From contig JACOXP010000009.1 in NCBI GenBank assembly GCA_016182295.1, positions 1-38,084 on the forward strand: a DNA stretch of 38,084 nucleotides, read 5' to 3'. Under the pieces are notes generated by a model, which was not told the origin of the DNA, did no database searches, and saw only the letters and a list, made by a program, of their open reading frames with translations. Of the stretch, positions 5,209 through 38,084 are shown piece by piece. The stretch is from Candidatus Harrisonbacteria bacterium. Its GTDB lineage: Bacteria > Patescibacteriota > Minisyncoccia > UBA6257 > WO2-44-18. Position 1 is the stretch's first letter. Every line of letters begins with the position of its first letter. Position numbers and translations under genes: made by a program.

Positions 5209-6669
5209 TTATATACAACAACTTAATTTAGAAATATCTTTTGTAAACGATAGCGCGACAATTTTTATCGCTTCTGAAAGCGTTGGGAACATCGGGAGCG
5301 AATTGACCACATCGTCAATCGTGTTTTTGTTTTTTACCAACATCATCGCCTCGGCGATCAGCTCTCCGGCGTTTGGCGCGAGAATATGCACGCCGAGAAT
5401 TTGTTTCGTTTTCGGATGAATCGCCATTTTTATCATTCCCTCGGTGCGGTGCATGATAATCGCTTTTGGCACATCCTCAAACGAAACTGTGCGGCAGGCG
5501 CACACTCCCATTTGCTTCATCTGCTCGTCTTCAGTAAAGCCGACACCCGCAAGCTGAGGGTCGGTAAAAATAGTGTAGGGCACGGCATTATAATCTATGC
5601 TTTTGAGCGCCTGCCCTTCCGAAGCTCCGGAGGAGCGAAGGAGGGCGTTTTCAGCGGCGAGCGTTCCTTCCCGTCCGGCGGTTGGTTCAAGCCGCAAGGG
5701 TCCGCTCGTAACATCACCCACCGCGAAAATATTTTTGTTGGAAGTTTGGAAATGCTGATTTACAACGACCGCCTGCCCTTTGTTCACCTCAACGCCGACA
5801 ACATCAAGACCAAGCCCTTGCGTGTTGGGTGTTTTGCCTGCCGCTAAAAGTATTTCATCGGCGGACACTTCTTCCTGCCCCTCGCCGATCTGGTACGAAA
5901 CAATTTTTTTATCGCCCTCTTTGCGCGCGTTTTTTACCTCAACATTGGTCTTGATAATAATTCCTTCTTTTGAAAGTATCTCGGTGAGCCGATCAGTAAG
6001 AGCTTTTTCAGAGTGCGGAAAAATTGAATCGCCGCGCTGTAAAATAGTTACTTTCGTGCCAAAACGGCTGAACATTTGGGCAAACTCCAAGCCGACAGGG
6101 CCTGCACCGATGACGACTAATTCTTTCGGTTGTTTTTCAAGGCGCAACGCTTCGATATGTGTAACAAATCCAATTTCGTGGATACCCTCAATCGGCGGCA
6201 CATTGGCGGTGGAGCCCGCGGCGATAATAAATTTTTCCGCACTCAATTTTTCCCTAGCTTGCCCTGAACTTGTCGAACCAGTCGAAGAGGTCACCTCTAC
6301 CTCATTTTGAGAAACAAATTTTGCCTTTCCCTCGATTGCTGTTACATGTTCTAAATTTTTCAAGACCTTTTCATATTTCTCTTGACGTAGTTTTCCCACA
6401 AGCGAAAGTTCGTCTTTCACAACTTTTTGAAAATCAAAATTTTTCACTTCAAGCTCTACGCCGGCAACGCCGTGATGTTTGGCGTGGTGTAAAATTTCTC
6501 CGGCGTAAAGAAGTGTCTTTGACGGCACACAACCAACATTGACACAAGTGCCGCCGAGCGGAAGTCCCGAATTCACGAGCGCAGTCTTTGCGCCGAGCTC
6601 ATTGGCGCGGATTGCCGCCGCAAACGCGCCCGCTCCACCGCCGATAATGATAAGGTCAAATTTTTGCAT
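5209..6669 (-). CDS. merA: Mercuric reductase-like flavoprotein (MerA type)
   Basis: This 486-residue class-I flavoprotein has GGGAGAFAAA at the FAD site, the redox motif GGTCVNVGCVPSK (Cys42, Cys47) identical to MerA, a second fold at VVIGAGPVGLEF, and a C-terminus ending KLSCCI. That terminal vicinal Cys pair is the hallmark by which MerA hands Hg(II) to the active site. The C-terminal catalytic His of lipoamide dehydrogenase is replaced (MFPTLSEA), as in MerA. There is no N-terminal heavy-metal-associated domain. MerA reduces Hg(II) to Hg(0) with NADPH in the cytoplasm. A short repeat at 6257-6277 adds STSSGQA around residues 131-138. The ATG overlaps the arsR-like stop by 14 bases, suggesting coupled translation. 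Another thiol or metal substrate is possible. Confidence 0.82.
   Translation of the reverse strand: MQKFDLIIIGGGAGAFAAAIRANELGAKTALVNSGLPLGGTCVNVGCVPSKTLLYAGEILHHAKHHGVAGVELEVKNFDFQKVVKDELSLVGKLRQEKYEKVLKNLEHVTAIEGKAKFVSQNEVEVTSSTGSTSSGQAREKLSAEKFIIAAGSTANVPPIEGIHEIGFVTHIEALRLEKQPKELVVIGAGPVGLEFAQMFSRFGTKVTILQRGDSIFPHSEKALTDRLTEILSKEGIIIKTNVEVKNARKEGDKKIVSYQIGEGQEEVSADEILLAAGKTPNTQGLGLDVVGVEVNKGQAVVVNQHFQTSNKNIFAVGDVTSGPLRLEPTAGREGTLAAENALLRSSGASEGQALKSIDYNAVPYTIFTDPQLAGVGFTEDEQMKQMGVCACRTVSFEDVPKAIIMHRTEGMIKMAIHPKTKQILGVHILAPNAGELIAEAMMLVKNKNTIDDVVNSLPMFPTLSEAIKIVALSFTKDISKLSCCI
6257..6277. repeat. Short dispersed repeat, copy 1 (inside merA)
   Basis: A 21-base element with core CCTGAACTTGTCGAA is identical to the copy at 31316-31336 in glyS and similar to 20626-20642. 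It is in frame and encodes STSSGQA on the minus strand. Confidence 0.8.
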
Positions 6670-18851: not shown

Positions 18852-18886
18852 TTGGCATACGCTATTACCTTGAGGTATAGTATAAT
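18852..18886 (+). promoter_or_regulatory. Promoter of the LAGLIDADG gene
   Basis: TTGGCA (18852-18857) is followed after 18 bases by TATAGT (18876-18881), overlapping TATAAT (18881-18886), which ends 7 bases before GTG 18894. The segment also holds CCTTGAGGT (18868-18876), the same 9-mer as the anticodon region of the tRNA-Leu downstream. Confidence 0.5.
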
Positions 18887-18893
18887 AATCATT

Positions 18894-19553
18894 GTGGGAA
18901 AACCTCAACACAAGGTAAGGATCAAATGGTCTCCGGAGTTTTCCTATGCGATCGGACTTTTAACAACTGATGGCAATCTTTCGTCAGATGGCCGACATTT
19001 TGATTTTACTTCCCAAGACCCGGAGCAAATTAAAAATTTAATGCGCTGCCTCGGAATAAAAAACAAGATCGGTAAAAAAATCTCGGGCCAAACAAAGCGG
19101 CGAATCGCTAGAGTTCAATTTGGCGATGTCAATTTTTATCGTTTTTTATTGACTATTGGACTAATGCCAAATAAATCAAAAATTCTAACTTCTTTAGATA
19201 TACCCGATAAATATTTTTTTGATTTTCTCCGCGGACACTTCGACGGTGATGGAACTTTCTATTCCTACTGGGATCCGCGCTGGAAATCAAGTTTCATGTT
19301 TTATGTAGAATTTATTGGGTCTAGTAAAAAACATATAGAATGGTTGCGAGATAAAATAAATCAATTTCTAACTATAAAAGGTCATATTACAAAAGGTGCG
19401 GGTCACTCATGTTATCAATTAAAATATGCCAAATCCGAATCCTTAAAACTTTTGCCAAAACTCTATCACAAAGAAAGTTTTCCCAGATTGTCACGTAAAT
19501 ATTTGAAAATCAAAGAAACTTTGGCTATAATAGGCAAACGGGGCCTTATATGA
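18894..19553 (+). CDS. LAGLIDADG-type homing endonuclease-like protein
   Basis: From GTG 18894 the protein has 219 residues with two LAGLIDADG-like helices: FSYAIGLLTTDGNLS (about 14-28) and FFDFLRGHFDGDGTFYS (about 108-124). The Asp residues at the helix ends would bind the catalytic metals. This is a monomeric two-motif layout; such enzymes cut long asymmetric sites and promote intron or gene homing. The gene is free-standing: rplS is intact on one side and the uninterrupted tRNA-Leu(GAG) begins one base after its TGA. Catalytic competence is likely from the motifs but unproven. A LAGLIDADG-derived regulator or intron maturase is the alternative. Confidence 0.85.
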   Translation: MGKPQHKVRIKWSPEFSYAIGLLTTDGNLSSDGRHFDFTSQDPEQIKNLMRCLGIKNKIGKKISGQTKRRIARVQFGDVNFYRFLLTIGLMPNKSKILTSLDIPDKYFFDFLRGHFDGDGTFYSYWDPRWKSSFMFYVEFIGSSKKHIEWLRDKINQFLTIKGHITKGAGHSCYQLKYAKSESLKLLPKLYHKESFPRLSRKYLKIKETLAIIGKRGLI

Positions 19554-19636
19554 GCGCAGGTGGCGTAACGGCAGCCGCGCAGCCTTGAGGTGGCTGTGCC
19601 CGCAAGGGCGTGGAGGTTCGATTCCTCTCCTGCGCA
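19554..19636 (+). tRNA. tRNA-Leu (anticodon GAG)
   Basis: Acceptor GCGCAGG/CCTGCGC, anticodon loop TTGAGGT giving GAG, a long variable arm (TGCCCGCAAGGGCGT), T-arm GGTTCGATTCC, discriminator A. It is uninterrupted and has no encoded CCA. It directly abuts the endonuclease stop codon. Confidence 0.95.
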
Positions 19637-29711: not shown

Positions 29712-30986
29712 CTACAAACTCAGCAATTTTTCAAATCGTTTCTTATCCTTATAGGGCCCGATGATCGCCAAATTAAGCTTGTCGTTACGGAAGATGTCCT
29801 TAGCCAGCTTAATTACTTCATTTCTACTTACTTTCCCAACCGCTTTCACGATTTCATCCGGAGTTTTCAATTTTTCCCCTAAAATTTCCTGGCCGCCGTA
29901 AAAATTAGCCATTGCGTCCGAACTTTCCAGCCCAAGCAAGAACCTTCCGGAGAGGTGATCCTTGGCTCGTTGTAAATCACCGGCACTCAAATCACCACCG
30001 GCTATTTTGGAAAGCTCGTCGAGGGTCGCTTTAATGGCAATATCCAGCTTTTCATGATTCACACCGGCCGAAACAGCGAAAAATCCGTGATCCGTGAAAA
30101 GGTCGGCATCGGCTCTGATGGAATAAGCCGCTCCTAATTCCCCTCGGACTTTTTGAAAAAGACGGGAGCTCATTCCACCGCCCAAAACATCGGCCAGGAC
30201 GTTCAACGCGTACCTACGTTTATCATAGGCATCGAAAGCCCGAACGCCCATCACTATATGGGCTTGATCGGATTCTTTGTGCCGCAGAAGAATAGCCGGT
30301 TTCTGCTGTGATTCTTTTGTCTTAAGTTTGCCCATTTTTTTACCAGTATTAATGCCGGTAAAATGCCGTTTAATGCTTTTGGCAATACCGCTTGGATCAA
30401 ATTTCCCGGCTACCACTATAATCGTAGCTTGAGCAACATATTGCGCCGCCCGATAGTCGGTTAATTTTTGACGAGTAAGTTTATTTACTATTTCTTTTGT
30501 GCCGCCAATATCCCAGCCGGCCGGTTGGTCGCCGTAGAGCAAATCCATAAAAAGATCTTGGACTTTGCGCGGAGGCGTATCTTCATACATATTTAATTCT
30601 TCAATAACAACGCCTTTTTCTTTCTCGATTTCTTTTTCGTCAAGCTTTTGGTTCAAATAAATGTCGGAAACGACGTCTAAAATTCTTTCAGTGTGCTTCG
30701 GCTGGGCTTTGGCAAAATAGCCGGTCCATTCTTGTGAAGTAAAAGCGTTGTATTCGGCGCCGATGCCATCCAATTCACTGGAAATATCAATGGCGTGCGG
30801 CCGGCGAGTAGTCCCCTTGAAACACATATGCTCCAAAAAATGAGAGATGCCATTGATATCTTTCGTTTCATATTTGGAACCGGTAGCAACTAAAACTAAA
30901 ACGGTGGTGGTCAAACTGTCCGCTTCCGGAACTAAAACGATCCGCAAACCGTTTGGCAAAGTTATTTTTTTAAATCCTAAGCTCAT
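29712..30986 (-). CDS. M16-family zinc metallopeptidase
   Basis: This 424-residue protein has the inverted zinc motif HFLEHMCFKGT (HxxEH, about residues 47-51), with the third ligand Glu expected in VVIEELNMYEDTP. The second half-domain has the family R/Y signature ADVLGGGMSSRLFQKVRGELGAAYSI. It resembles the single-repeat bacterial PqqL/YmxG-type processing peptidases. It is presumably cytoplasmic, since there is no signal peptide. Its start overlaps the glyS stop by 17 bases, so translation is probably coupled. Confidence 0.94.
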   Translation of the reverse strand: MSLGFKKITLPNGLRIVLVPEADSLTTTVLVLVATGSKYETKDINGISHFLEHMCFKGTTRRPHAIDISSELDGIGAEYNAFTSQEWTGYFAKAQPKHTERILDVVSDIYLNQKLDEKEIEKEKGVVIEELNMYEDTPPRKVQDLFMDLLYGDQPAGWDIGGTKEIVNKLTRQKLTDYRAAQYVAQATIIVVAGKFDPSGIAKSIKRHFTGINTGKKMGKLKTKESQQKPAILLRHKESDQAHIVMGVRAFDAYDKRRYALNVLADVLGGGMSSRLFQKVRGELGAAYSIRADADLFTDHGFFAVSAGVNHEKLDIAIKATLDELSKIAGGDLSAGDLQRAKDHLSGRFLLGLESSDAMANFYGGQEILGEKLKTPDEIVKAVGKVSRNEVIKLAKDIFRNDKLNLAIIGPYKDKKRFEKLLSL

Positions 30987-32445
30987 TGATGAGATATTCT
31001 TCGAGTTTCGCTATTTTAATTCTTTTTTGCTTCATCGAATCGCGGTCGCGCACGGTAACATCTTTTTTCTTAGCCGAATCAAAATCAATGGTAACACAAA
31101 ACGGCGTTCCGATTTCGTCCTGCCGACGGTAGCGGCGGCCGATGCTTTGAGTTTCGTCATATTCGCAAACGAATTTTTCCGAAAGTTCATCAAAGATCTT
31201 TTTGGCCAGCTTGGAAAGCTCCGGTTTTTTAGAAAGCGGCAAGACGGCCACTTTCACCGGCGCCAGCCAGTGAGGAAATTTCATAACTACGCGGGTGGCG
31301 CTTTCGCCCTCTTCCGCTTGCCCTGAACTTGTCGAACGGGCAGTTGGGGCCTGTTCTTCTTCGTAGGCCTCGAGCATCGCTACCAAAACCGATCTGTCTA
31401 CTCCCCAAGTTGGTTCAATCACGTGGGGAATAAATTTTTTCTTGGGATCCTCCGGATCAGCGTAAGAAAGATCCTGACCGCTTGCCTGGGAGTGATTTTT
31501 GAGATCAAAATCGGTTCGATAAGCCAGGCCGTAAAGCTCTTCATTGCCAAACGGGTAGTCGTAATCCACATCCACGGTGCGCTTGGAATAATGAGCGCGG
31601 TCCTCGGCCGACACTTCCCGATAATGAATTTTCTTTTCGGAGACACCAAGGTGTTTCAGCCATTTTTTCATCTCGCCAAGCCAGTGATCAAACCATTTCT
31701 CCCAATCTTTTTCTTCGCAGAAATACTCAATTTCCATTTGCTCGAATTCTCGAGTGCGGAAAATGAAGTTGCCCGGCGTAATTTCATTGCGAAACGCCTT
31801 CCCGGCCTGGGCAATACCGAAAGGCAACCGCTTGCGCGTCGTGTCAATAATGTTTTTAAAATCGACAAACATCGCTTGGGCTGTTTCCGGGCGAAGATAA
31901 ACTTCGTTGGCCTTTTCTTCCGCCGGACCCATAAAGGTTTTGAACATTAAGTTGAATTGTTTAGGTATGGCGACTTTAATCCCCCCCCCACAAGTAGGGC
32001 AATCCCAATATGAATTTTCTCTTTCATATGGATATTTTTCAAAAGCTTCTTTTGGGTTCTTAAATAAAAGTTCGTGAAATTTTTCAGATCTTTCTATGCC
32101 TTTTTCATCGGGGGCAGTCCTTCCTTGAGATGGAAGAAATCTAAGCTGATCAGCTCTGAAACGATGATGGCACTTTTTGCATTCTATTAAGGGATCGGAG
32201 AAGTTTTTTAGATGACCGCTGGCTTCCCAAACTTTAGGATTCATCATCAAAGCGGCGTCCAGACCGACAATGTCGGCGCGCTGGCGGACAAAACGCTTCC
32301 ACCATTCATCTTTGATGTTTTTTTTGAGTTCCGCTCCAAGCGGTCCGTAATCCCAAGAATTGGCAAGACCGCCGTAGATTTCCGATCCCGGAAAAATAAA
32401 ACCGCGGCGTTTTGCTAAATTAACTATTTTTTCCATTAAATCCAT
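30970..32445 (-). CDS. glyS: Glycyl-tRNA synthetase (alpha2 type)
   Basis: From ATG 32445 the protein has 491 residues. It is the dimeric class-II GlyRS found in archaea, eukaryotes and many bacteria, with GFIFPGSEIYGGLANSWDYGPLG, a zinc site (CKKCHHRF...CPTCGGG), RPETAQAMFVDFKN, KAFRNEITPGNFIFRTREFEQMEIEYF and IEPTWGVDRSVLVAML, then the anticodon-binding domain. An in-frame repeat (31316-31336) encodes STSSGQA at about residues 370-377, between catalytic and anticodon domains. The frame is open to 32499, but that part overlaps the upstream gene and lacks GlyRS similarity. Confidence 0.96.
   Translation of the reverse strand: MDLMEKIVNLAKRRGFIFPGSEIYGGLANSWDYGPLGAELKKNIKDEWWKRFVRQRADIVGLDAALMMNPKVWEASGHLKNFSDPLIECKKCHHRFRADQLRFLPSQGRTAPDEKGIERSEKFHELLFKNPKEAFEKYPYERENSYWDCPTCGGGIKVAIPKQFNLMFKTFMGPAEEKANEVYLRPETAQAMFVDFKNIIDTTRKRLPFGIAQAGKAFRNEITPGNFIFRTREFEQMEIEYFCEEKDWEKWFDHWLGEMKKWLKHLGVSEKKIHYREVSAEDRAHYSKRTVDVDYDYPFGNEELYGLAYRTDFDLKNHSQASGQDLSYADPEDPKKKFIPHVIEPTWGVDRSVLVAMLEAYEEEQAPTARSTSSGQAEEGESATRVVMKFPHWLAPVKVAVLPLSKKPELSKLAKKIFDELSEKFVCEYDETQSIGRRYRRQDEIGTPFCVTIDFDSAKKKDVTVRDRDSMKQKRIKIAKLEEYLINELRI
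31316..31336. repeat. Short dispersed repeat, copy 2 (inside glyS)
   Basis: Identical over 21 bases to 6257-6277 in merA, in the same orientation and same reading frame (STSSGQA). Confidence 0.85.
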
Positions 32446-32458
32446 GGTGTGATTTATA

Positions 32459-34177
32459 TTATTGAACCAACCCCTGGTCGGAACTGACGGTTTTGTCATC
32501 CGGCAATAAGGTGGTTACTCCGAAGTCGGCATTGTTGAGTTGAAGACCGGTAAAATCATCAATGGCTTTGATCCGAGTATCTCTGATTAATTCCATATAT
32601 TTTCCAACATCCGCGCTGGAAGGAGTTACTTCAATTTGGAAAACCGCTTCCATCGGACTGGTTACCACGCCGGTAGTCGCCGGCACTCGACTGATATTCC
32701 AGACGATTTCCTGCGTTCTTTCATTATATATCGGTTCGCTCGATCCGCCGCTTTTAACGATTTTTACGAAACGGGCATTGCTGCCAAGAAAAGCCCTTAC
32801 TTCAACGTCTTTAATATCAGTGCTGTAGTTGGTTATAAGCCAGTGAATTGTGTATTGGGTTGAGTTGTTGACGCGAGGCGGCCAGGGGCCGGAATTGGCT
32901 ACGCCGGAAGCGGCATCTCGGAAAAACGCGCGGGTGTCTATTGCCACAGAACCGGAAACTTTGGTTTCCAAAGCGGCTATTCCAATGGTTTTGTCGGCGG
33001 TAACAAAGTGAGGAACCGTCGGCGATTCAATTGAGCCAGATGCCTTCAAAAGAAAATTCTTGTCGCTCAATCTCCTAATCGGGTAATTTTCTTTGGCTTT
33101 GATTGAAAAACGCACTGAACCGGATTCTCCCGGAAGCAAAGTGGCAAGTTCCGGAAGGTTGGAAGCGTTCCAGGTGAGAGTGTTGTCAGTGGATCGAAAA
33201 CTGCCCAGAGTATCTAACGTGGGGAAATCAAACATTTCTCCAATCAGCTGGGCGCTGATAACAACGTCCCGCAGACCGATATCGGTATTGTTGGAAAAAT
33301 TCAAAGAATAATTAAGAATATCGCCCGCTTTCACGATATATTCCGGATCCTCGTTGAGAAAAATGCGAAGCGAAAGAGGAGAGGTGGCGATAGATAAAGT
33401 GGCTGTCTTGACGCTGATCGGATAGGACTGGCCGAGAAAACTCGCTTCGACAGACGCCTTGATATCGAAAAAAGCGCCGTCGGGACCGATGATCCGACCG
33501 GTGATTTTAAATTGGTTTTCCGATCCTTTTCTAAGCCCGCCAAGCACCCAAGTATTGTTTCCCACGTCCGGAGGCAAAGCCGATTTAATAAACGTGTAGG
33601 TCAATGGGTATTCCAGTTTCAGTTTCAAGTCCTGAAAATCAATATCGGAAGAGTTTTTATAAGAAATTTCGGTTTCAAAACTTTCGCCGCTAAAAACTTT
33701 CTGGGGAGCGGCGATGTCTAAAACGATACCGTAACTGCCCACCGCCAGATCAAGTGTCTGGCGTTTTTCAAACCGAGAACTTAACGAACCGGAGAGGAAA
33801 TTGGCGGCCGCTTCAATCCGTTTAAAAGAATTTTCGCCGTCCAAAGCGATCAATTTAAAGATGGCTTGATTGACCCCTCCGGCGCTTAAAGTTTTAAATT
33901 CCCGCAAGTCAACATTCTTGGCCGGCGGCGATCCCAGAAAAGCGATGCCTTCCGGCAAAGACAGAGAAAGCCGGAGGTCTTCAAAGATATTTTGCGAGGT
34001 GTTGGAAACTTCCACGGTAATTTCAAAAGGCACGCCGATAGAAACTTTTTCCGGACCCTGGATGTCAATCTCCAGACCGCGGGAAAGACGCCCCTGATAA
34101 GCGGAGTAAATAAGCAGACCGCCTCCCAAAACAATTACTACGGCAAAAATTATTGTTACCTTAGCGCGAAGAGACAT
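32459..34177 (-). CDS. Membrane-anchored surface protein with Ig-like/DUF11-type repeats
   Basis: This 572-residue protein starts with a short cytoplasmic MSLRAKV, a membrane helix (about 7-27) and a long extracytoplasmic part. That part is built of repeated beta-sandwich units marked by FEITVEVSNTSQNIFEDLRLSLSLPEGI (about 50), FETEISYKNSSDIDFQDLKLKLEYP (about 165), LNYSLNFSNNTDIGLRDVVISAQL (about 285) and YTIHWLITNYSTDIKDVEVRAFL (about 430). This N...D.ed..l.l.lP pattern is typical of DUF11/CARDB-like domains in surface adhesins or stalks. No sorting signal is seen. It lies between recO (11 bases) and glyS (14 bases), an odd place for a surface protein but probably co-transcribed. Confidence 0.8.
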   Translation of the reverse strand: MSLRAKVTIIFAVVIVLGGGLLIYSAYQGRLSRGLEIDIQGPEKVSIGVPFEITVEVSNTSQNIFEDLRLSLSLPEGIAFLGSPPAKNVDLREFKTLSAGGVNQAIFKLIALDGENSFKRIEAAANFLSGSLSSRFEKRQTLDLAVGSYGIVLDIAAPQKVFSGESFETEISYKNSSDIDFQDLKLKLEYPLTYTFIKSALPPDVGNNTWVLGGLRKGSENQFKITGRIIGPDGAFFDIKASVEASFLGQSYPISVKTATLSIATSPLSLRIFLNEDPEYIVKAGDILNYSLNFSNNTDIGLRDVVISAQLIGEMFDFPTLDTLGSFRSTDNTLTWNASNLPELATLLPGESGSVRFSIKAKENYPIRRLSDKNFLLKASGSIESPTVPHFVTADKTIGIAALETKVSGSVAIDTRAFFRDAASGVANSGPWPPRVNNSTQYTIHWLITNYSTDIKDVEVRAFLGSNARFVKIVKSGGSSEPIYNERTQEIVWNISRVPATTGVVTSPMEAVFQIEVTPSSADVGKYMELIRDTRIKAIDDFTGLQLNNADFGVTTLLPDDKTVSSDQGLVQ

Positions 34178-35695: not shown

Positions 35696-35793
35696 TTGCC
35701 GACTCCTTTACATAATCTTATTTAAAAAATTTAAAACTGCCGAATCAATTATGGCATTTTTCCAACAAAGAGTCGATGGCGATCGTCAAGATA

Positions 35794-35813
35794 CAGAAAA
35801 TGTCATGGGAGTC
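35794..35813 (-). repeat. CCCATGACA repeat, copy a (inverted)
   Basis: CAGAAAATGTCATGGGAGTC. Its reverse complement shares CTCCCATGACA with the copies at 37463 and 37929. It lies 7 bases upstream of the -35 of the next promoter. Confidence 0.7.
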
Positions 35814-35820
35814 AAAAAAC

Positions 35821-35850
35821 TTGACAAGTAGCATACTGCTGTGCTACTCT
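35821..35850 (+). promoter_or_regulatory. Strong promoter of the zinc-ribbon gene
   Basis: TTGACA (35821-35826), 18-base spacer, extended -10 TGC-TACTCT (35845-35850). The leader is about 35 bases. Confidence 0.75.
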
Positions 35851-35890
35851 GCAACCAGTTTCAATCAACTTATTTGAAAGGGGGTGTGGC

Positions 35891-36082
35891 GTGGAGTACG
35901 TTGAGGAATGCACCGTGACGTGTTGCGTCTGCGGCAAGCAGTTCACCGGCCAAAGGGTCGCCGACTCCAAGGAGGAGCTGGACAAGACCGGCTGGTACAA
36001 TGCCGTGGAGGAGACCCTACTTCTCGAGACGTGCCGTGAGTGTCTCGACAAGGAGAAGGCCAAGACCAGCGCAACGGCCTAG
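35891..36082 (+). CDS. Small four-Cys zinc-ribbon protein
   Basis: From GTG 35891 the protein has 63 residues. CCVCGKQF near the N-terminus and CRECLDKEK near the C-terminus form a probable zinc knuckle, separated by an acidic stretch (ADSKEELDKTGWYNAVEETLLLET). Such small ribbons usually bind nucleic acid or protein; the function here is unknown. A G-rich SD (GGGGG near 35880) and a near-consensus promoter suggest strong expression. Codon choice is strikingly G/C-ending (GAG, AAG, GTC, GAC), unlike all neighbours, which points to recent transfer. Confidence 0.75.
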   Translation: MEYVEECTVTCCVCGKQFTGQRVADSKEELDKTGWYNAVEETLLLETCRECLDKEKAKTSATA

Positions 36083-36088
36083 CCAAAC

Positions 36089-36523
36089 CTAGTGCTGAGC
36101 ATCACTCAAAACTGCTCTTTTTTCTTTGCCAAAATCCATTCTCATTCTTCTCTTCTTATACGAGCTGACTTCTTTTTTCAATTGTTGTCTTAGGCCGCTG
36201 AAACTTTTAGAGTTAGATAATAACTCAAGCGCTTGTTCGGCAGTTCGGATTGCTTCCAAATAATTTTTTTCTCCAGCTAAAGAAAATGATAAGTTAGACC
36301 AAGCTAAACCGAATCTCGGCTCCAACTTGATAGCCTTCTTATAATATCTAATCGCCTTTTGCTGATTACCCGCTGCTCGAAATACATTGCCAAGACTATT
36401 ATAGAGTTCTGGTTTATTTTTCGTACGTCTATAATATTTCTTAAAATATATCTCCGCGCTCTTAAAGTCTCCTTTGTGCAACATCTTTATCGCGGTTGAT
36501 TTGTAATTTTCGTTATTCCCCAT
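36089..36523 (-). CDS. TPR-repeat protein
   Basis: From ATG 36523 the protein has 144 residues with three tetratricopeptide repeats: STAIKMLHKGDFKSAEIYFKKYY, PELYNSLGNVFRAAGNQQKAIRYYKKAIKLEP and GLAWSNLSFSLAGEKNYLEAIRTAEQALELL. A basic tail follows (KKRRMRMDFGKEKR). There is no signal peptide, so it is probably a cytoplasmic protein-binding scaffold. A TATAAT box (36541-36536, minus strand) lies 12 bases before the ATG. It converges on the zinc-ribbon gene with a 6-base gap. Confidence 0.8.
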   Translation of the reverse strand: MGNNENYKSTAIKMLHKGDFKSAEIYFKKYYRRTKNKPELYNSLGNVFRAAGNQQKAIRYYKKAIKLEPRFGLAWSNLSFSLAGEKNYLEAIRTAEQALELLSNSKSFSGLRQQLKKEVSSYKKRRMRMDFGKEKRAVLSDAQH

Positions 36524-36589
36524 GCTACCTATTACATTATAATAAAAAAATTTCATGCGGAACGAAAAATCAAAAATAATTTTTTCGCC

Positions 36590-36618
36590 AAGTCCGATTC
36601 TTGATGGGTCGGGCTTTT
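36590..36618 (+). terminator. Terminator-like hairpin without an obvious upstream gene
   Basis: AAGTCCGAT (36590-36598) pairs with GTCGGGCTT-type bases (36608-36616) with G-T pairs, followed by TTTTTT on the plus strand. The nearest plus-strand gene ends over 500 bases upstream, with an opposing gene between, so the hairpin may be left from a lost gene. Repeat copy b follows directly. Confidence 0.5.
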
Positions 36619-36620
36619 TT

Positions 36621-36646
36621 TATTCTCACCTCTCATAACACTTCAT
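36621..36646 (+). repeat. CCCATGACA repeat, copy b (diverged)
   Basis: TATTCTCACCTCTCATAACACTTC, two mismatches from the copy at 37463. It contains the last codons and stop of the toxin gene on the minus strand. Confidence 0.7.
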
Positions 36647-36842
36647 AAACCACTCGCCAGTCTCCAACGCGGAACTTAAAAAAGTTCTTCCACTTCCCGC
36701 GTAGAGGATCATGCTTAACTTGATCAAAGCTGTCTTTGAACCATTGAAGTTTTTCAAGAAGGCGGCTTTTGGCTGGTTCGCCGATGCGCTTCAAGTCCTG
36801 CTCTGCCACGTCAGTAACTTCGATTCGCCAATCTATCTCCAC
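36633..36842 (-). CDS. RelE/ParE-family toxin, short at the C-terminus
   Basis: A 69-residue protein matching the RelE/ParE fold: an N-terminal strand (DWRIEVTDVAEQDLKRI), two helices (PAKSRLLEKLQWFKDS), then PLRGKWKNFFKFRVGDWRVVYEV, where the RVGDWRV strand carries the conserved Arg. The usual last strand and tail (commonly ...IGHRREVY) are missing: translation stops right after YEVL, and those last codons lie within repeat copy b. The gene is 2 bases downstream of its antitoxin. The toxin cuts mRNA or poisons gyrase in intact relatives; activity of this shortened form is doubtful. Confidence 0.8.
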   Translation of the reverse strand: MEIDWRIEVTDVAEQDLKRIGEPAKSRLLEKLQWFKDSFDQVKHDPLRGKWKNFFKFRVGDWRVVYEVL

Positions 36843-36844
36843 AA

Positions 36845-37054
36845 TTAATGAACCTCGTATTGCTTCAAAACCTCGGTCAAACTTCTTGTTTTGTCAGCTT
36901 TTCTGGAGCGAATCGATTTGCGCAGTCGGGTTTCAAATTCGGGCCTTAATTCCAAACCAAAATCGGGGTCATTCAAAAATTCTCTTAAGACCTCAATGAC
37001 TTGCTTTTTGACCAAACTATTTAGCTTTGCTTCTTCTAAACTCGTCTTAGCCAT
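36845..37054 (-). CDS. Antitoxin partner of the RelE/ParE toxin
   Basis: A 69-residue helical, charged protein (KKQVIEVLREFLNDPDFGLELRPEFETRLRKSIRSRKADKTRSLTEVLKQYEVH) immediately upstream of the toxin. The size, order and C-terminal SLTEVLKQY segment suit an antitoxin that wraps its toxin. No clear ribbon-helix-helix is seen at the N-terminus, so DNA binding and autoregulation cannot be confirmed. TGA-TATACT on the minus strand (37069-37061) ends 6 bases before the ATG, giving a leaderless start. Confidence 0.75.
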   Translation of the reverse strand: MAKTSLEEAKLNSLVKKQVIEVLREFLNDPDFGLELRPEFETRLRKSIRSRKADKTRSLTEVLKQYEVH

Positions 37055-37060
37055 GTTCTT

Positions 37061-37069
37061 AGTATATCA
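37061..37069 (-). promoter_or_regulatory. Extended -10 promoter of the toxin-antitoxin pair
   Basis: TGA-TATACT on the minus strand, ending 6 bases before the antitoxin ATG at 37054. Confidence 0.55.
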
Positions 37070-37090
37070 CCTTGAAAAATTTTTGCAAAA

Positions 37091-37113
37091 TTATCTCCCG
37101 TGACCCCTCTTCG
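37091..37113 (+). repeat. CCCATGACA repeat, copy c (diverged)
   Basis: TTATCTCCCGTGACCCCTCTTC, same orientation as copies b, d and f, with several substitutions. It lies between the toxin-antitoxin pair and the next small gene. Confidence 0.5.
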
Positions 37114-37153
37114 CTTTTCGAGCTTCGGACTGGCGCAGCGCTTCTACTACCTA

Positions 37154-37183
37154 TTGACCGCGTCCTAAAGATTCTTTTAATCT
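37154..37183 (+). promoter_or_regulatory. Promoter of the 76-residue protein gene
   Basis: TTGACC (37154-37159), 18-base spacer, TAATCT (37178-37183). The 18-base spacer matches the other small-gene promoters in the window. Confidence 0.5.
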
Positions 37184-37218
37184 TAACGTGGCACGTTGAA
37201 TTTCTTCAGAGGGAAGTC

Positions 37219-37449
37219 ATGAAAAAGTACAGAATTCTCAAGTCGGTAATACTAAGTTTTCTAACTCCGCAGGACCAAAGTGATGAAATCATCGAGCCGA
37301 AAGATGGAGTCATACTGGAAAGTGACGGCCGTACAATCTGGGCCATCAAAAATAGGAAACGGCACGAATCAATAACCGTAGCTCACGCTATCGAATATTG
37401 GCTTGATATCGGAGCAATTATAGAAATTTCATCGGAGGAAGGTCAATGA
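37219..37449 (+). CDS. Small orphan protein (76 residues)
   Basis: From ATG 37219, preceded by GAGGG as SD, the protein reads MKKYRILKSVILSFLTPQDQ, then a beta-like DGVILESDGRTIWAIKNRKRHESI and a helix AHAIEYWLDIGAIIEIS. There are no Cys residues, signal peptide or membrane helix. The frame is open upstream to 37072, but the promoter and SD fix this start. The stop lies inside a terminator hairpin. I recognise no family. Confidence 0.65.
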   Translation: MKKYRILKSVILSFLTPQDQSDEIIEPKDGVILESDGRTIWAIKNRKRHESITVAHAIEYWLDIGAIIEISSEEGQ

Positions 37450-37463
37450 GGCCTTCTTTTTTT
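37438..37463 (+). terminator. Intrinsic terminator of the 76-residue protein gene
   Basis: GAAGGTC (37438-37444) pairs with GGCCTTC (37450-37456; one G-T pair) around AATGA, followed by seven T. It spans the TGA stop codon. Confidence 0.85.
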
Positions 37464-37487
37464 ATTCTCACCTCCCATGACACTTCT
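37463..37487 (+). repeat. CCCATGACA repeat, copy d
   Basis: TATTCTCACCTCCCATGACACTTCT starts at the end of the terminator T-run, the same arrangement as copies b and f. Confidence 0.8.
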
Positions 37488-37568
37488 GTTTTTTTAATAA
37501 CCAATCGCAGGAATTCTCTTTATTTTAGGCCGTTTTTCAATCTACGATACTACCAGATTTGCCGAGAC
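37488..37568. other. Short AT-rich gap between two inverted repeat copies
   Basis: No credible gene is seen here. The segment lies between copy d and the inverted copy e, so the two copies could pair into a long hairpin with this stretch as the loop. Confidence 0.4.
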
Positions 37569-37590
37569 ATAGAAAATGTCATGGGGACTT
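37569..37590 (-). repeat. CCCATGACA repeat, copy e (inverted)
   Basis: ATAGAAAATGTCATGGGGAC is nearly identical to copy a and abuts the -35 of the next promoter. Confidence 0.75.
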
Positions 37591-37617
37591 GTATTTTAAT
37601 TCCTTCTACTGTAATAT
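37589..37617 (+). promoter_or_regulatory. Promoter of the 72-residue membrane protein gene
   Basis: TTGTAT (37589-37594), 17-base spacer, TAATAT (37612-37617). The leader is about 35 bases. Confidence 0.6.
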
Positions 37618-37659
37618 TTCAATTAGTACGGTTCCTTTACTTTTCCGGGAGGTGTTTCA

Positions 37660-37878
37660 ATGATTAAACCCTTTGTTTTGTTATCTTTTTCTTGGCTTCT
37701 AACAAGTCTGGCGTTCATCGGTGTCGGCATTTATCGAACAATAGCGCTTGATACTTACGGATTCATAATATGGGGCCTTATCATGTTGGCCATGTATAAA
37801 GTATGGATCACACCAGATAATAAAAAATGGACTTACTGTGATTGTTGCACGTGCGAAAAGGATTGCTGTAAAAAGTAA
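37660..37878 (+). CDS. Small membrane protein with Cys-rich tail
   Basis: A 72-residue protein with two predicted membrane helices (about 4-24 and 31-48), then a soluble tail DNKKWTYCDCCTCEKDCCKK holding six Cys. The tail pattern CDCCTCEKDCC could bind a metal ion or cluster at the membrane surface. SD GGGAGG (near 37648-37653) is well placed, and a terminator follows. No family is recognised. Given the metal- and thiol-linked operon elsewhere in the window, a metal-binding role is possible but only inferred. Confidence 0.7.
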   Translation: MIKPFVLLSFSWLLTSLAFIGVGIYRTIALDTYGFIIWGLIMLAMYKVWITPDNKKWTYCDCCTCEKDCCKK

Positions 37879-37902
37879 CCAATACCACCATTCTCCGCTA
37901 AC

Positions 37903-37923
37903 GGGCCGCCCTGCGGCCTTTTT
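37903..37923 (+). terminator. Intrinsic terminator of the Cys-tail membrane protein gene
   Basis: GGCCGC (37904-37909) pairs perfectly with GCGGCC (37913-37918), followed by TTTTTCTTT. Confidence 0.85.
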
Positions 37924-37928
37924 CTTTA

Positions 37929-37949
37929 CTTATCTCCCATGACACTTCT
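37929..37949 (+). repeat. CCCATGACA repeat, copy f
   Basis: CTTATCTCCCATGACACTTCT, directly after a terminator, as in copies b and d. Confidence 0.8.
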
Positions 37950-37972
37950 ATTACTTTTCCTATAAACTATTT

Positions 37973-38005
37973 TGTCAAGGAAATTTCATGGAAATTTCCT
38001 TGACA
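37973..38005. promoter_or_regulatory. Perfect 15-base palindrome over the -35 box (operator candidate)
   Basis: TGTCAAGGAAATTTC (37973-37987) and its exact reverse complement (37991-38005) flank ATG. The right arm ends in the TTGACA -35 of the last promoter, so a bound dimeric regulator would block RNA polymerase. Confidence 0.6.
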
Positions 38006-38028
38006 TCTTCATCAATTTAGGCTATACT
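38000..38028 (+). promoter_or_regulatory. Near-consensus promoter of the truncated last gene
   Basis: TTGACA (38000-38005), 17-base spacer, TATACT (38023-38028). Confidence 0.8.
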
Positions 38029-38062
38029 GTTCTCTAGAACATCGCTAGAAATGGAGGCTACT

Positions 38063-38084
38063 ATGGATCGTGCAGAAATGGGGG
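38063..38084 (+). CDS. Start of a gene cut by the window end
   Basis: ATG 38063 follows a good SD (GGAGG, 38053-38057) and a strong promoter. Only MDRAEMG is visible, so nothing can be said about function. It fits the same promoter, SD and small-gene style as its left neighbours. Confidence 0.6.

Follow-up and report, generated by a model that had tools for sequence, protein, structure and literature searches.

In Dehalococcoides, genomic islands and cis-mobilizable elements (CIMEs) specific for ssrA are arranged in tandem (PMC3146451), and accretion between CIMEs and integrative and conjugative elements or integrative and mobilizable elements has been described (PMC5704250). We analyzed contig JACOXP010000009.1 of Candidatus Harrisonbacteria bacterium (assembly GCA_016182295.1), whose whole length of 38,084 nucleotides is referred to as the window, and in which short genes at the right end lie between copies of a recurring motif. 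The window carries an array of att-delimited, mostly one-gene cassettes that resembles accreted CIMEs and not an integron, an explanation to which we assign, as a whole, a probability of about 0.8. As in Dehalococcoides, the elements stand in tandem, are flanked by direct repeats that copy the 3' end of a single conserved gene, lack an integrase in many cases, and adjoin integrase-bearing elements of the same specificity. In Dehalococcoides, however, ssrA is the target and the islands are kilobase-sized and multi-gene, whereas here the target is secA, the integrase is a tyrosine integrase of phages, the units hold one gene in about 480 bp, and some of the arrays are found apart from the target gene.

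Chromosomal integrons and superintegrons share with these arrays the tandem, mostly single-gene cassettes, the varied or orphan genes, the toxin-antitoxin pairs and the fixed anchor. The present arrays differ in that they lack IntI and an attI/attC pair, that their site is a phage att core originating from secA codons, and that the cassette genes face both ways, often with their own terminators. The pdif modules, which depend on Xer, are likewise small, contain toxin-antitoxin genes and possess sites of the tyrosine-recombinase type, but here the site is linked to a phage-encoded integrase. Temperate phages that integrate into the 3' ends of protein genes also carry the gene end in attP and restore the gene upon integration, whereas in the present case secA is the target and the att site is common to a resident cassette array. 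The literature searched, with most subscription papers and preprints outside the search, contained no description of secA as an integration site or of such arrays in Patescibacteria.

The motif is an attachment core formed by the 3' end of secA

The window is the entire contig C15 of the metagenome-assembled genome G000 (632 kb, 19 contigs). The first-pass annotation, made from the window alone, reported six motif copies (a–f) within about 2.2 kb and none in the first 35 kb, and proposed a modular cassette array with a site unlike integron attC, a proposal that the present analysis supports. Every copy was found again, and the window holds four exact copies of the 9-mer CCCATGACA, always between 35.8 and 37.95 kb; other matches with at most one mismatch are at chance level. 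Across the whole G000 genome, CTCCCATGACACTT with up to two mismatches yields eight matches (four at the right end of the window, two at the right end of contig C11 and two isolated), while the reversed control yields none. A profile of 103 sites, all from genomes other than G000, recovers sites d, f, a, e and b of the window (best E = 1.8e-8) together with four sites on C11, and finds nothing convincing elsewhere in G000 and nothing in the reversed sequence. The exact 12-mer AAGTGTCATGGG is present in 69 of 384 genomes of the class, compared with about 10 for the reversed pattern, and its copies are often clustered at intervals of 300–800 bp. The motif pattern detects seven stretches across the genome contigs, six of them from lineages of the Parcubacteria group and one from G315. 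These genome-wide counts show that the motif is not evenly spread over intergenic regions, and rule it out as a general companion of promoters or terminators.

In a genome of the same family as G000 (G003), the perfect match to the motif lies in the final codons of secA, which encode ...CPCGSGKKYKKCHGK-stop and read AAGTGTCATGGGAAATAA. In relatives, the motif corresponds to the secA 3' end, which encodes the SEC-C residues KYKKCHGx followed by the stop (AAGTGTCATGGGxxxTRA). Copies outside secA retain the shape of this end, CCnTGCGG ... AAAGTGTCATGGG followed by 3 nt and TRA. The core, in which GAARTAYAARAAGTGTCATGG is the stretch considered for the crossover, is identical to the secA 3' ends and to attP, attL and attR of the phages described below. 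The motif is the att core used by one family of temperate Patescibacteria phages; that the secA 3' end is a phage attachment site had escaped the first-pass annotation.

Arrays extend from secA and differ among relatives

With secA set forwards, the arrays begin at secA and extend downstream. All 31 sites at the 13 secA-anchored loci, secA ends included, share one orientation, with none in the reversed control. The 55 bounded cassettes have a median length of 480 bp and mostly contain a single gene in tandem units, the genes facing either way (25 minus, 24 plus). Inspection by eye revealed NUDIX, HAD, GNAT, ASCH, cytidine deaminase and RelBE-like proteins as well as orphans. A tyrosine-recombinase profile has no match inside the bounded cassettes; by this measure the cassettes, like CIMEs, have att sites on both sides without integrase or transfer genes. 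Arrays away from secA are found in G354 and G298.

The unit order is not fixed across relatives. Within one genus (G302, G547 and G396), three different first units follow secA, and the units between sites differ between congeners. Homologous cassettes are found in different families and positions (HAD, 70–87% identical; NUDIX, 72%; IRKFDLS, 69%).

Temperate phages carry the same core

Among 16 genomes searched for tyrosine recombinases, 13 contain exactly one and two contain none, while G322 carries, next to a site, an additional one of a different kind. Integrases related to this additional one lie 0.4–0.8 kb from a site in G452, G288 and G145 as well, giving four genomes in all with a linked tyrosine integrase that is not IntI. 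The phage integrases are about 25% identical to Xer, and their neighbors are phage genes according to PHROGs (tape measure, tail, endolysin, Sak4-like, SSB and integrase). Relatives in viral contigs were found with an alignment as the query, not with a single sequence. Two IMG/VR contigs, L142 and L143, carry the site as an attP: it encodes GCGKKYKKCHG-stop and is flanked by phage genes, the integrase on one side and a Sak4-like gene on the other. Prophage left ends directly follow secA in G145, G288 and G574, and in each of two contigs a prophage is complete (35,161 and 49,820 bp), with attL and attR present. As in other temperate phages, attP is located next to the integrase, attL and attR have a common core, and the gene end is restored. 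Rfam gave no match in six integrase/att loci, and the cassette-type pattern gave none in the viral contigs.

Two further features of these phages were observed. A long conserved hairpin and a small helix-turn-helix gene lie between the integrase and attP (L096, 1320–1390; L105, 900–980; L121, 2660–2750; L030), with no Rfam match. For more distant members of this integrase family, the end seems to fall at the 3' end of a gene other than secA: in G141 (L137) at that of an L33-like gene, as read by eye, and in G328 and G385 (L134/L135) at a conserved WYRxEMGYT...LVxHVxKxG. The family may therefore have switched targets.

Junctions fall inside the core

The attR regions of three prophages are 97–98% identical up to the core and then continue into three different cassettes. 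Their attL regions form the mirror image, in which secA genes that have diverged from one another pass into identical phage DNA within GAARTAYAARAAGTGTCATGGG. A NUDIX cassette occurs both in the flank of a prophage and in a host array; from the core downstream the two copies are 99% identical, while the upstream DNA is unrelated. Between congeners, a HAD cassette follows secA and one unit in G465 and the end of the phage integrase in G322. One phage lineage is inserted after secA in L220 and after a cassette, in the att site of that cassette, in L230; the final codons of the L230 cassette, AVAFMLSTLTMPFFKKLW, match a cassette of G298. Accordingly, the phage integrase uses cassette att sites, at least as integration targets. 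With prophage attR adjoining cassettes and a phage in a cassette att, the att specificity is common to the cassettes and the adjoining integrase-bearing element, as it is for CIMEs.

The inverted copies a and e are instances of a far arm, CnCATGACATTTTCTAT..., that precedes a direct site by about 100 nt at about 20 loci. The far arm and the direct site form a sequence-conserved element of about 112 nt with complementary ends, although most sites lack the far arm. RNAalifold found no consensus structure for this composite site, and the copy in the window is no more stable than its shuffles (z-scores of -0.4/-0.8); recombination of a single strand, as at attC, is thus unsupported. The phage attP core is an inverted repeat, CCCTGTGGCACTTTTTA - 14 nt - TAAAAAGTGTCATGGG (z = -3.2), as expected for the arms of a tyrosine-recombinase site. 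The far arm may represent an accessory binding site.

Origin of the arrays

In the explanation that we favor, the tyrosine integrase of these phages integrates at the secA 3' end, in the SEC-C codons KYKKCHGx-stop; the secA codons and the stop are restored by the element that enters. Cassettes of about 0.25–1.3 kb, usually comprising one gene with its own terminator, lacking an integrase and having direct core copies on both sides, have gathered into tandem rows, both at secA and at secondary places, and the window is one such array. The phage integrase may excise and insert cassettes, either in trans or in cis together with a prophage, by which the arrays would behave like an integron served by visiting phages. 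The array functions like an integron cassette bank and resembles CIME accretion, but its units are single-gene and its site is a phage att core from secA codons. That temperate-phage integrases exchange the one-gene banks at this site is a tentative proposal, with a chance slightly short of even.

Several observations weigh against this explanation. No circular cassettes or excision events were seen, and most array genomes have Xer as their only recombinase. In the G000 bin, neither SecA nor the SEC-C motif was found and a phage-type integrase is absent, so that neither secA anchoring nor activity of the window array is supported. Furthermore, two G000 cassette proteins have no relatives among the 384 class genomes, and transfer of the window's own cassettes is therefore likewise unsupported.

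If the cassettes were the worn-down remains of prophages or islands that integrated successively at att sites, the arrays could arise with no active exchange. Tandem accretion followed by integrase loss is a known route elsewhere (PMC3146451, PMC5704250), and several sites are degenerate or split by inserts. Such decay would not readily be expected to leave cassettes that are small and single-gene with the terminator at a fixed place, and that recur intact in unrelated families (HAD, NUDIX and IRKFDLS), one of them at 99% in two contexts; we consider it rather unlikely. Movement of the cassettes by the chromosomal Xer recombinase, as with pdif modules, would agree with Xer often being the sole tyrosine recombinase of array genomes. 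A canonical dif-like sequence is, however, absent in 10 of 13 genomes, and AAGTGTCATGGG is absent from 315 of the 384, which excludes it as an obligatory Xer site in this form. The phages with this site bring a distinct integrase of their own, and the orientation is uniform, not that of alternating 28-bp XerC/XerD sites, which makes Xer an improbable agent.

Two other origins are far less probable than Xer. The tandem single-gene cassettes and the composite site of about 112 nt with complementary ends recall an integron with unusual attC sites, but the phage integrases score only 38–58 bits against TIGR02249, whose cut-off is 265 (the G000 Xer scores 120). An attC-type site was rejected in view of the core GTCATGGG, which is not GTTRRRY, and the absence of a covarying fold, and the far arm is missing from most sites. 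An integron is thus highly improbable. Even less credence is given to transposons or miniature inverted-repeat transposable elements (MITEs) with CCCATGACA as terminal inverted repeats: some units do bear inverted copies at both ends (37574–37947), but sites in secA-anchored arrays all point in one direction, and the breakpoints lie inside a common core.

An array of att-delimited cassettes exchanged by phage integrases would give these bacteria, whose genomes are very small and in which few mobile elements are known, a mechanism for acquiring genes, and would constitute a second, independent route to integron-like cassette banking. Phage infection would then both threaten the cell and reshuffle its accessory genes. 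The secA 3' end would supply an attB for temperate phages of Patescibacteria; phages of the candidate phyla radiation are little known. The explanation can be tested directly, as the site and the integrase have been identified together with many natural donor and acceptor sites. Such arrays are also places where assemblies of these genomes can be interrupted, and secA can drop out of bins.

Sites and cassettes of the window

The left edge of the array, beside a patatin-like gene, is formed by site a (copy 35798–35811, feature 35758–35819, plus strand), which is of the inverted far-arm type (held-out E = 0.005). Site b (36630–36643, feature 36614–36675, minus) is degenerate, with two mismatches (AAGTGTTATGAG; E = 0.38), and encodes the final codons and the stop of a ParE-like toxin. 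Site c (~37097, feature 37094–37155, minus) has its core, GTCACGGG ... AGAAG, interrupted by a palindromic insert of about 35 nt. Site d (37472–37485, feature 37457–37518, minus; AAACAGAAGTGTCATGGGAGGTGAGAATAAAAA, E = 1.8e-8) is the 3' half of a composite element of about 112 nt (37471–37588, minus), conserved in sequence without a covarying fold. Site e (37574–37585, feature 37564–37589, plus; E = 0.019) is the inverted far arm of this element (CCCATGACATTTTC on the minus strand), and the inverted copies a and e, proposed as unit borders, are of the far-arm type and not borders of equal rank. Site f is located at 37934–37947 (feature 37916–37987, minus; E = 2.9e-5). Terminator hairpins on the plus strand precede sites b (36590–36616), d (37434–37460) and f (37903–37919), as had been noted, whereas a simple scan of the plus strand found no promoter-like site immediately following copy a or e, where -35 boxes had been claimed.

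The cassette between sites a and b (35812–36629) contains a zinc-ribbon-like open reading frame (ORF; 35891–36082, plus) and a TPR protein (36089–36556, minus; Pfam TPR_2, E = 1e-14). The cassette between b and c (36644–37093, minus) encodes a ParE-like toxin (36633–36842; Pfam ParE_toxin, E = 5e-8) and a small partner (36845–37054). A 76-aa orphan (ORF 37219–37449), with relatives in none of the other class genomes, occupies the cassette between c and d (37156–37471, plus), and a 72-aa membrane protein with a Cys-rich tail (ORF 37660–37878) that between e and f (37589–37933, plus). Neither has a Pfam match. Of the unrelated small genes proposed for the units, the TPR protein and the toxin are thus borne out by Pfam, while the zinc ribbon has no match. 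A further cassette (37948–38084, plus; ORF start at 38064) is truncated by the contig end. The end of C11 repeats the anatomy of the window, with a gene, a terminator, a T-rich stretch and a site, and the ends of C11 and C15 are possibly two halves of one cassette, the last cassette of the window continuing into C11. The joined array would be a single one, bordered by an Hsp20 gene on C11 and by the patatin-like gene on C15, and is probably not anchored at secA.

The insert of site c lies at an equal position within the core in C11, G298 and G322. Palindromic inserts of this CGCTGTGCCCGTCCGTAGCTCGAAGAGCGAAGGAGG type cut the core at one fixed point (window 37094–37155; L009, 6030–6078; L052; L096, ~2880–2960), and perhaps represent a MITE-like element aimed at the core or a silencer of the site. 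The first ~100 bp, the terminator part, of two G000 cassettes (window 36543–36643 and L009, 6917–7020) are nearly identical while the genes differ (TPR versus a RelE-type pair), which suggests fusion or conversion between cassettes. A perfect 15-bp inverted repeat, TGTCAAGGAAATTTC/GAAATTTCCTTGACA (37973–38005), overlaps a strong promoter-like sequence before the last ORF and is probably an operator. Outside the array, a LAGLIDADG-like ORF (18852–19553) lies immediately ahead of tRNA-Leu at 19554, and two conserved proteins (5209–6669 and 30970–32499) contain in-frame inserts, STGSTSSGQAREKL and ARSTSSGQAEEGES, that resemble repeats of the Rickettsia palindromic element type.
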